DNA from: Thiomargarita sp.
GTDB taxonomy: Bacteria > Pseudomonadota > Gammaproteobacteria > Beggiatoales > Beggiatoaceae
DNA length: 44,832 nt
Direction of reading: 5' to 3'
Assembly: GCA_020720115.1 (NCBI GenBank)
Contig: DYPD01000017.1
Coordinates: forward strand, 1 to 44,832
The position numbers were made by a program, and so were the translations under genes. Shown here in pieces: positions 32,110-38,725 of this stretch. Below the pieces are notes generated by a model. That model made no database searches. It was given only the letters and a program-made list of their open reading frames with translations, and was not told the DNA's origin. The first letter of the stretch is position 1, and each line of letters begins with the position of its first letter.

Positions 32110-32877
32110 ATGCGCATCATCTCCGTCTTAGTATTTTTCATTATCGCTTTAACATCCGCTGTTTATGCGGCTGACAATGCAGAAAAACCAAGTCCAGATA
32201 CAATGGATAAAGTCACTGTCCAGATAAAACAAGCGTTGAGTAAATTAGTTAATCCCGCCTCGTTGGTTTCTCTTCAATTAGCTAAATCCCCTGTGCCTGG
32301 TCTATATGAGGTTATTTTAGGCGGACATGTTCTCTATGTTACTGAGGATGGAAACTATCTTATCAGCGGCGGAGACATCATGGATTTGCAGCAAGACGGC
32401 AAAAATCTGACAGAAGAGCGCCGTAACTCGATACGTCTGGATACCTTAAGCAAGGTCAATCCAGATCAGATGATACGTTTCAAACCCGAAGGTAAAACCA
32501 AACATGTATTAACTGCATTCACTGACGTAGACTGCTTTTATTGCGCCAAACTTCATAAAGAAGTCACTGATCTCAACAAAGCGGGTATTGAGGTGCGTTA
32601 TTTAGCCTTTCCCCGTTCAGGCATCAATTCCGAAACCTACAAAACAATGGTTTCCGTCTGGTGTGCAGATAATCCACAACAAGCAATGACCGATGCCAAA
32701 GCAGGCAAAGAAATTGCTGCAAAGACCTGCTCAAACCCTATCGCAAGCCAATATGAATTAGGTCGGCAAATGGGCGTGTCTGGTACGCCCGCGTTAATTA
32801 TGCCAAACGGCGAATTAATGCCAGGTTATGCGCCTGCTGATAAACTCGTTCAATACCTTGATGACCTGGACAAATAA
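32110..32877 (+). CDS. dsbC: Thiol:disulfide interchange protein DsbC
   Basis: Signal peptide 'MRIISVLVFFIIALTSAVYAA'; 'LTAFTDVDCFYCAKLHKEVTDLNKAGIEVRYLAFPRSGINSETYKTMVSVWCADN', cis-Pro 'GVSGTPALIMPNGELMPGY'. Confidence 0.93.
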   Translation: MRIISVLVFFIIALTSAVYAADNAEKPSPDTMDKVTVQIKQALSKLVNPASLVSLQLAKSPVPGLYEVILGGHVLYVTEDGNYLISGGDIMDLQQDGKNLTEERRNSIRLDTLSKVNPDQMIRFKPEGKTKHVLTAFTDVDCFYCAKLHKEVTDLNKAGIEVRYLAFPRSGINSETYKTMVSVWCADNPQQAMTDAKAGKEIAAKTCSNPIASQYELGRQMGVSGTPALIMPNGELMPGYAPADKLVQYLDDLDK

Positions 32878-32961: not shown

Positions 32962-34566
32962 ATGCACAAAATTTCTAGCCTTTTGCTCTTTGCAGTTTGT
33001 TTATTAAGCCTCAGTGAGCAAAACCACTTAGCCCTCGCTGCTGAATCAGCAGAACAGCCTCCAACACCCAAAACTTCCCTGACAGTTCAACAACTTCCGC
33101 CTGCTGTACTGAGCAAATTAGAACAAGCTTTAGCATCGGTTGGCTTTCTCCAAACCCTCCCTAGCAACGCAAAAATCACCCACGCATCCGGCAGTGACGG
33201 TTTATACAGCATCCAAGTCGGTATTTACCTATTTGACATCAGTTCTGATGGGCACTTCAGTATGCAAGGCACGGTTTTAGAACGAGCCGCAGAAATGCAG
33301 GGCGCAGCAGAAGTACAGGTTGAAGCTTCGCAAGAATATGCCGACATCGTCCGTGAAACGCTGGCAGCCCTGGATGAACGGCAAATGGTTGTGTTTGCGC
33401 CTGCGGGTAAAGTGCTGCATACCATTACGGTTTTTACAGATGTTAGCTGTCCTTATTCTATTGAATTGCATAGAGAAATTGAATTACTCAATGATGATGG
33501 CGTCAAAGTACGTTACCTCGGCTATCCGCGTATGGGGCACGACTCCCTGGGCTATCAGCAAATGCGCCCTATTTGGTGTAGCGACAATCGCGCTGAAGCG
33601 TTTGACCTCGCCATGAATCACCAGCGGGTTCCCTTAAAAAACTGCGATTCAAACGCCCTTGATAACCATATCAAGTTAGGTGACAGCTTGGGTTTAATGG
33701 GAACGCCAACACTGCTCTTTGACGATGGTAGTGTTTTCACTGGCTACAGCAACGCCATTGACATCATTAGCTACCTAGAAAGGGGCACAGAACTCCCCCC
33801 CTCTTCTTTTTCTTGGGTTGCAGACTTTGCCGATGAAATCGAAGCAGCAGAACCCGCCACAGCTGTTGAGTACCTGCAAGCACAAGCAGTCGCCATAGAT
33901 ACCATCCCCACGCCTGTTCGCACGGCTTTGTATAAGCACCTCCACGAACTCTGGTTCAAACCTGTGCCTTGGGAACAGCTTCGATTCACAGCCTCACATG
34001 ATTTTTTTTCCACCAAAATCGGTGCTTACCGCATTGACGTGAGCAACGACGGAAAATTTGTCATGAAAATGAATCTATTAGAAAACATCGCACAATTTAC
34101 TGAGGGACAACGCGCACTCATTCGCCAACAAGCACTTGCCGTATTTGACGAACAAAGCGCCATCACTTTTACGCCCGATAGCCCCGCTCAATACCGCATT
34201 ACCCTGTTTACCGACGCCAACTGTCAATTTTGCCAATCGCAATATCGAGAAATCCCCTATCTGCTGCAAGCGGGTGTCGAAATACGTTATCTCGCTTACC
34301 CCACTGGCGGATTGGATGCGCCCGAATATCAAACCCTGAGTGCTATCTGGTGCGCTAAAGATCGAAAACAGGCGCTACTGGCAGAAAAACCCGCAAAAAA
34401 GCTGCGATTAGCGACAAAATGTCAAAATCCTGTTGCAGTACACTATGAATTTGGACGCAGCCTGGGTATCCAAAGTGCACCCGCCACCGTGTTAGAAAAC
34501 GGCGAATTACTGCCTGGTTATTCTAGCAGCGACGAAATTTTAGATCGCCTGGAACACAAGCCATGA
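32962..34566 (+). CDS. Tandem DsbC-like protein: two DsbC_N-like and two thioredoxin-like units in one polypeptide
   Basis: Unit 1 'HTITVFTDVSCPYSIELHREIELLNDDGVKVRYLGYPRMGHDS...IWCSDN...GLMGTPTLLFDDGSVFTGYS'; unit 2 'YRITLFTDANCQFCQSQYREIPYLLQAGVEIRYLAYPTGGLDA...IWCAKDRKQALL...GIQSAPATVLENGELLPGYS'. Signal peptide at the N-terminus; one continuous ORF. Confidence 0.9.
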   Translation: MHKISSLLLFAVCLLSLSEQNHLALAAESAEQPPTPKTSLTVQQLPPAVLSKLEQALASVGFLQTLPSNAKITHASGSDGLYSIQVGIYLFDISSDGHFSMQGTVLERAAEMQGAAEVQVEASQEYADIVRETLAALDERQMVVFAPAGKVLHTITVFTDVSCPYSIELHREIELLNDDGVKVRYLGYPRMGHDSLGYQQMRPIWCSDNRAEAFDLAMNHQRVPLKNCDSNALDNHIKLGDSLGLMGTPTLLFDDGSVFTGYSNAIDIISYLERGTELPPSSFSWVADFADEIEAAEPATAVEYLQAQAVAIDTIPTPVRTALYKHLHELWFKPVPWEQLRFTASHDFFSTKIGAYRIDVSNDGKFVMKMNLLENIAQFTEGQRALIRQQALAVFDEQSAITFTPDSPAQYRITLFTDANCQFCQSQYREIPYLLQAGVEIRYLAYPTGGLDAPEYQTLSAIWCAKDRKQALLAEKPAKKLRLATKCQNPVAVHYEFGRSLGIQSAPATVLENGELLPGYSSSDEILDRLEHKP

Positions 34567-37443: not shown

Positions 37444-38725
37444 ATGAGCTTAACCACAAAAATCATGATTGCCATGTTAAGCGGTGCGCTGCTGGGTATC
37501 TTGATTAATCTGTTTTTCAAGGATATTGCCTGGATAAATAGCCATGTAACCGAAGGCATTTTTAACGTAGTCGGCATCCTGTTTGTCTCGGCGTTAAAAA
37601 TGATGGTGGTGCCTTTGGTGTTTGTCTCGTTGGTGTGTGGGGTTACGGCTTTGGGCGATGTCAAGGCGCTAGGGCGTATTGGCGGCAAGGCGTTGGTGCT
37701 ATACCTATTGACCACCGCGCTGGCGATTACGATTGCCTTGAGCATCGCGGTGACAGTCGCGCCGGGTACGGGCTTTGAGGCTAATGCCCAGCCCACGCAA
37801 TTTGAGAGCAAACCGCCACCCCCGCTGGCGCAAGTGCTCATCAACCTGGTGCCGAAAAATCCACCGGAAGCAATGACCGAGGGCAATATGCTGCAAATTA
37901 TTGTTTTCGCGCTTTTATTTGGTGTTGCCATCACCCTCGCCGGCAACGGTGGGCGCCATGTGCTGAATTTTTTCACCGATTTGAACGAAGTTATTATGCA
38001 AATGGTGTACATCATCATGAAAATCGCGCCTTTCGGTGTGTTTTGCCTGATTGCCCGCACCTTTGCCAATCAGGGCGTGGACATCATTCTGCCGCTACTG
38101 AGTTATTTTCTGGTCATGGTCAGCGCCCCTCTTGCTGCACGGGCTAGGCGCTTTTAGCCTGATTTTGCGTTTCCTGGTAGGTGTCAATCCACTGATTTTC
38201 TACAAAAAAATTCGCCCCATGTTGGCATTCGCTTTCAGCACCGCGAGTAGCAATGCTACCATTCCCATCACCTTAAACACAGTGCAAGAACGCCTTGGCG
38301 TCAAGCAATCAGTCGCCTCTTTTACCGTGCCTTTGGGCGCTACCATTAACATGGACGGCACAGCTATTATGCAAGGTGTCGCCACCGTGTTTATTGCCAA
38401 TGTTTACAACATAGATTTAAGCATGACAGATTACTTAGTGGTGGTCTTGACCGCGACGCTTGCTTCGGTGGGTACGGCTGGCGTACCCGGCGTAGGCTTG
38501 ATTATGTTGGCGATGGTGTTGGAACAAGTGCATTTACCTGTTGAAGGCATCGCGCTCATTATTGGCGTTGACCGCCTGCTGGACATGATTCGCACGTCGG
38601 TCAATGTGACTGGCGATGCGGTGGTCAGTTGTTGGATTGCTAAAAGCGAAAATGCTTTACAATTAGAAGCTTATAATAATCCACTACCAGGCATTGTAGC
38701 GCAACCTGGCGCTACACCCGCATAA
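37444..38725 (+). pseudogene. Dicarboxylate/amino acid:cation symporter (DAACS; GltP/DctA-like), apparently frameshifted
   Basis: N-terminal ORF 37444-38157 ('MSLTTKIMIAMLSGALLGI...ALKMMVVPLVFVSLVCGVTALGDV') and C-terminal ORF 38132-38725 ('FAFSTASSNATIPITLNTVQERLGV...VPLGATINMDGTAIMQGV...GTAGVPGVGLIMLAMVL...DRLLDMIRTSVNVTGDAV') are halves of one family member in different frames; junction at the CCCC run 38126-38129. Confidence 0.85.

Follow-up and report, generated by a model that had tools for sequence, protein, structure and literature searches.

The need of DsbC for a dimer, and for two cysteines in each of its arms, has so far been studied by means of engineered mutants and linked constructs. 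Arredondo et al. are said to have found in 2009 that a laboratory-made linked DsbC retains isomerase activity when one of its sites is dead. DsbC is reduced by DsbD via the N-terminal alpha domain of the latter, and the active site of DsbG is CPYC. A lone attacking cysteine, with serine at the resolving position, is known from ERp44 and other CxxS thioredoxin-fold proteins, and these can hold their clients by a mixed disulfide. Here we describe a protein of Thiomargarita sp. which is a variant of DsbC: it consists of two full DsbC-like units with N-terminal domains that are divergent in sequence, and its natural fusion and conserved CxxS arm are new relative to the literature that we searched, where no report of a natural tandem or CxxS DsbC was found. 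The gene lies in a 44,832-nucleotide stretch of DNA (contig DYPD01000017.1; hereafter the window), and its features are collected in Table 1.

Table 1. Features of the tandem DsbC-like gene and its upstream neighbour in the window
Feature	Position	Strand	Basis
Ordinary dsbC (CFYC, GTPA), ends 84 bp upstream of the tandem gene	32110..32877	+	
Tandem DsbC-like protein, 534 aa	32962..34566	+	ORF translation and orthologues
Sec-type signal peptide, residues 1-26 (...HLALA|AES), without lipobox	32962..33039	+	Cleavage site by eye
Unit 1 N-terminal (dimerisation-type) domain and linker helix, ~residues 38-145	33073..33396	+	hhalign 98.9%; modelled strands and helix
Unit 1 thioredoxin domain, ~residues 146-275	33397..33786	+	Pfam Thioredoxin_2; hhalign 100%
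Unit 1 monothiol active site CPYS, residues 163-166 (Cys163, Ser166)	33448..33459	+	TGTCCTTATTCT
Unit 1 structural Cys206-Cys228 pair (WC...C), span	33577..33645	+	Conserved with E. coli DsbC
Unit 1 cis-Pro loop GTPT, residues 247-250	33700..33711	+	Translation
Inter-unit linker, low confidence, ~residues 276-310	33787..33891	+	pLDDT <50 at 282-305
Unit 2 N-terminal domain and linker helix, ~residues 311-402	33892..34167	+	hhalign 99.0%; model
Unit 2 thioredoxin domain, ~residues 403-534	34168..34563	+	Pfam Thioredoxin_2, hhalign
Unit 2 dithiol active site CQFC, residues 421-424 (Cys421, Cys424)	34222..34233	+	Translation
Unit 2 structural Cys464-Cys487 pair, span	34351..34422	+	Kept in G010 too
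Unit 2 cis-Pro loop SAPA, residues 505-508	34474..34485	+	Translation

The four motifs read in the initial annotation (CPYS, CQFC, GTPT and SAPA) were all recovered in the translation at the positions given in Table 1, and the normal dsbC which it had placed next to the tandem gene is indeed there. The signal peptide region forms a helix (residues 2-24) in the AlphaFold model, and the orthologues have similar leaders. Elsewhere in the window, at 37444-38725, two overlapping frames together encode a GltP/DctA-type symporter, with the break near 38132-38157; either the gene is broken or the sequence contains a frameshift through a sequencing error. TAACTGA repeats, which would be a taxonomic hint to Beggiatoaceae, are absent from the window.

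Two complete DsbC-like units in a single chain had been claimed initially, and a profile search was expected to return two DsbC_N and two thioredoxin-like domains. The thioredoxin part of this expectation was borne out by two matches of Pfam Thioredoxin_2, and the NCBIfam DsbC model (NF008129) likewise matched twice; the DsbC_N part was not, as Pfam DsbC_N matched neither of the N-terminal domains of the tandem protein in the profile search. Those domains were recognized by profile-profile comparison (hhalign) with the N-domains of the relatives' ordinary DsbCs, at 98.9 and 99.0% versus 0.1 to 0.8% for a wrong-domain control, and so the claim of two complete units holds. The equivalog cut-off of the NCBIfam DsbC model is 215 bits; the tandem scores 223.6 bits as the sum of two separate stretches, unit 2 by itself scores 103 bits, and the window's ordinary dsbC, with 192 bits, also falls under the cut-off. 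Because the tandem passes it solely via summed matches, automatic annotation would probably call the protein a plain DsbC, and both the fusion and the missing cysteine would be hidden.

DsbC is the best PDB match of the tandem by sequence and by fold, and it accounts for all of the ten best matches in the PDB search, including the C101S mutant 1g0t. With the E. coli protein (PDB 1eej) the tandem shares the N-domain, the linker helix, the thioredoxin domain, the cis-Pro loop, the WC...C pair and the periplasmic location, whereas it differs in holding two units per chain, in having CPYS for CXXC in unit 1, and in N-domains too divergent for Pfam DsbC_N. A DsbC-type thioredoxin domain with a cis-Pro loop is present in both units (SAPA retains the proline). 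CXXC is found in unit 2 of three of the four tandems described below, and in none of the five unit 1 sequences (CPYS or CPFS); by the CXXC criterion unit 1 is thus a DsbC homologue and not a DsbC enzyme. What defines the CxxS monothiol proteins, a cysteine and then a conserved serine at the resolving position, is seen in all five.

We searched 43 genomes of the family, the window's own being G000, plus 369 genomes across the class. A full tandem is encoded by four of the family genomes, namely G000, G001 (62% identity), G016 (41%) and G010 (37%), with the unit 1 motif CPYS in G000, G001 and G010 and CPFS in G016; in the fifth carrier genome, G007, unit 1 (CPYS) stands alone, with no unit 2. 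All unit 1 sequences retain CP[YF]S together with the Gly-Thr-cis-Pro loop, a conservation based on n=5 genomes, at pairwise identities of mostly 37-47% (65% for the same-genus pair). Among the family genomes, the DNA pattern for CP[YF]S returned exactly the five carriers; over the 369 class genomes it returned the window and G124:C48 alone, and the dsbC locus of G124 is on C51 instead. By this pattern CP[YF]S was absent from every other DsbC searched in the family and in the 369 class genomes, and a more relaxed DsbC pattern, C-x-[YF]-S, gave nothing beyond the window in the class sample of 369 genomes; both were written with TCN serine codons, and AGY forms would escape them. Long open frames holding DsbC elsewhere (G257, G355, G381, G102, G242 and others) have one DsbC unit each among the matches listed. 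A widespread tandem DsbC outside the family was a candidate that we rejected on these single-unit frames among the matches listed, which rare tandems could escape. Within the genomes searched, the tandem DsbC is conserved and lineage-restricted, and it is undescribed in the literature searched.

Conservation of CPYS in orthologues had been named initially as the point to check, since CXXC in both units of the orthologues would make it a local error. CXXC in both units was seen in none of them, and recurrence of the motif in five genomes rules out chance or a local error. The asymmetry of the active sites, with one arm devoid of the resolving cysteine, likewise extends to all four tandems and the stand-alone homologue. 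The idea that catalysis lies with unit 2 and that unit 1 is its impaired companion had to be given up: the unit 1 site is invariant, and unit 2 is absent in G007 and devoid of both active-site cysteines in G010, its site otherwise being CQFC, CRFC or CPFC. As regards the contrast drawn between GTPT in unit 1 and SAPA in unit 2, the GTP loop proved to be shared and SAPA to be particular to the window, as the orthologues have GTPS, GTPG and, in G010, HAGS with the proline lost. SAPA was also considered as a functional trait and dropped, being absent from the orthologues (two with GTP, one without the loop). G010 unit 2 retains its N-domain and its structural WC...C pair despite the loss of the active site, and structural cysteines are retained in all units. 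To judge from the sequences compared, the monothiol arm (unit 1) is the constant part of the protein, and unit 2 appears less constrained.

A tree was built from 59 DsbC units (clade supports given as paired values). In it, the unit 1 sequences and the G007 stand-alone copy form one clade (100/96), and the unit 2 sequences form their own (96/86), with longer branches. A stand-alone CPFC DsbC paralogue of G005 branches as sister to unit 1 (98/82). As unit 1 is monophyletic, G007 included, and has a CPFC sister in G005, the simplest view of the cysteine-to-serine replacement is that it happened once, in an ancestor, and was kept thereafter. The tree suggests that a single-unit CXXC DsbC was duplicated and then underwent this change; for the fusion, which may precede or follow the divergence of the G007 copy, an AU test favoured neither order (p 0.36). 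The G007 stand-alone copy (L010, G007:C42:20235-20699) ends in a C-terminal tail, LEKETPLKSDGYS, that resembles the start of the tandems' inter-unit linker, which may hint at a former unit 2, since lost. A stand-alone unit 1 in G007 also means that the CPYS site does not require fusion. A third DsbC paralogue, with CEYC or CEFC and with FID replacing FTD, forms another clade (100/99) made of G000:C121:39860-40534 (L003), G001:C230 and G016:C35.

Longer unit 2 branches, a degenerate unit 2 in G010, its lack in G007 and SAPA in the window might all be expected of a decaying relic of a duplicated dsbC, in which unit 1 lost its resolving cysteine, unit 2 is eroding and little function is left. We consider such a relic very improbable, as long open frames are maintained in four genomes, the active-site Cys and Ser and the GTP of unit 1 are invariant at ~40% overall identity, and the structural cysteines are kept in every unit. 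Moreover, all the relatives found with unit 1 share the cysteine loss, and so the one-cysteine arm looks like a conserved design and not like decay.

Modelling supports two DsbC folds per chain. For the window protein, AlphaFold2 with 29 sequences gave a mean pLDDT of 86.8 and a pTM of 0.57, and recovered both N-domains and both thioredoxin folds, with low confidence in the linker at 282-305; for the G001 orthologue, a model with four sequences had the same elements at pLDDT 72.9 and pTM 0.45. By analogy with the known DsbC dimer, the two units would form an intramolecular V, for which both pTM values are moderate. The low inter-unit model confidence and the divergent N-domain sequences could also fit a bivalent scaffold, in which there is no pairing within the chain and the N-domains instead bind other copies, or the ordinary DsbC encoded by the neighbouring gene, giving larger hetero-oligomers. 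An ordinary dsbC immediately upstream of the tandem gene in both G000 and G016, which share this neighbour order, would suit such an arrangement; however, the tandem gene is not adjacent to dsbC in G001 and G010, and a flexible linker of ~30 residues would be expected to ease intramolecular pairing, so that we regard the scaffold as quite improbable. Gene neighbours besides dsbC are not conserved among the tandem carriers.

The reading that we propose, with about an even chance of being correct, is that two DsbC units form a covalent pseudo-dimer, in which the conserved monothiol arm carries out single-cysteine disulfide exchange or isomerisation. In the periplasm, the two N-domains of the fused pair would most likely pair within the chain and present two unequal thioredoxin arms. 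Cys163 of unit 1 would then attack a non-native or mixed disulfide of the client, giving an enzyme-client disulfide which this arm could not undo alone. As no intramolecular active-site disulfide is possible in unit 1, it should not be oxidisable to a disulfide donor, nor should it be simply a reductase. In reductases, the second cysteine of CXXC is the one that resolves the mixed disulfide, so unit 1 should need another thiol for release, and it may trap mixed disulfides, as had been put forward initially. In DsbA C33A, where the second cysteine is missing, the mixed disulfide forms and stays unresolved, i.e. trapped (PMC13269488). Release by another cysteine of the client would amount to pure isomerisation; alternatively, an outside thiol donor, e.g. 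the DsbD alpha domain, or the CXXC of unit 2 where present, could free the client. Unit 2 would have an auxiliary part, making the cleft for clients wider, whether or not it retains any chemistry, and the N-domain and structural pair kept by G010 unit 2 are consistent with such a binding role.

One alternative, in which isomerisation is not the task, is a thiol-retention chaperone like ERp44 (CRFS), whose CPYS arm would hold immature or misoxidised secreted proteins until another thiol system released them. The conserved lone attacking cysteine with serine second, the intact cis-Pro loop and N-domains of the client-binding type would all suit retention, as would persistence of the tandem gene in G010 with a unit 2 without chemistry. 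On the other hand, the unit 2 CXXC of three of the four tandems could itself free clients, and the C-terminal tail and pH gating specific to ERp44 were not seen (nor were they expected). The natural Cys-then-Ser site is shared with ERp44 and the CxxS proteins at the level of mechanism at most, as these are proteins of the eukaryotic ER without DsbC N-domains. A retention role seems rather unlikely to us.

The DsbD of the carriers counts in favour of the preferred single-cysteine isomerase, with the reservation given below. DsbD with three N-terminal alpha domains per protein occurs in all five CPYS carriers (in the window's genome at G000:C23:4318-5556, L078) versus one of the 38 other family genomes (G015; Fisher p 6e-6), most family genomes having one or two. 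Each alpha domain retains its cysteine pair in the five carriers, the first being the weakest match. Shared ancestry confounds this association, since the carriers form a group in the DsbC tree (93/88, G005 included), and it does not count as independent evidence. Neither DsbB (PF02600) nor VKOR (PF07884) was detected in G000, G001, G003, G004, G005, G007, G010 and G016, and DsbA-like proteins were found in all of the eight genomes examined for them, including those of this set that were among the eight.

Such a reduction-leaning set in the carriers, with an expanded DsbD and no detectable DsbB or VKOR, might point to a DsbG-like repair, in which Cys163 would act on single cysteines of periplasmic proteins, reducing their sulfenylated, glutathionylated or persulfidated forms, and the three-alpha DsbD or unit 2 would clear the mixed disulfide. 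A sulfur-rich periplasm would favour this function, and CPYS is one residue away from the CPYC of DsbG, with which the tandem shares a related architecture and CPY at the active site. However, unit 1 lacks the second cysteine, the tandem has CPYS and CQFC and no CPYC, and the DsbG equivalog model gives it 35.5 bits versus a cut-off of 124; in sequence models both units score with DsbC far above DsbG. In addition, G003 and G004 are likewise without detectable DsbB or VKOR, although they are non-carriers. Repair of this kind is, in our opinion, unlikely. An extended form of the isomerase reading would be a natural asymmetric single-chain isomerase in which the monothiol arm works and has co-evolved with the extra-alpha DsbD that resets it, in the absence of DsbB and VKOR, thus giving the periplasm a second pathway of disulfide repair that uses a single cysteine; this more far-reaching version we hold to be rather unlikely.

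The tandem resembles the engineered linked DsbC in that two halves are covalently joined and one active site is altered, and DsbC C101S, with serine for the second active-site cysteine, is the laboratory equivalent of unit 1. Unlike these constructs, the tandem is natural and conserved, and its altered arm is the conserved one. It represents a natural lineage in which the arms were fused and free to diverge, and the one-cysteine arm was retained. What a second cysteine contributes, and what a second arm does, can therefore be tested on native sequences that represent several stages: the stand-alone CPFC sister, the stand-alone CPYS protein, tandems in which one arm is a dithiol, and a tandem in which neither is.
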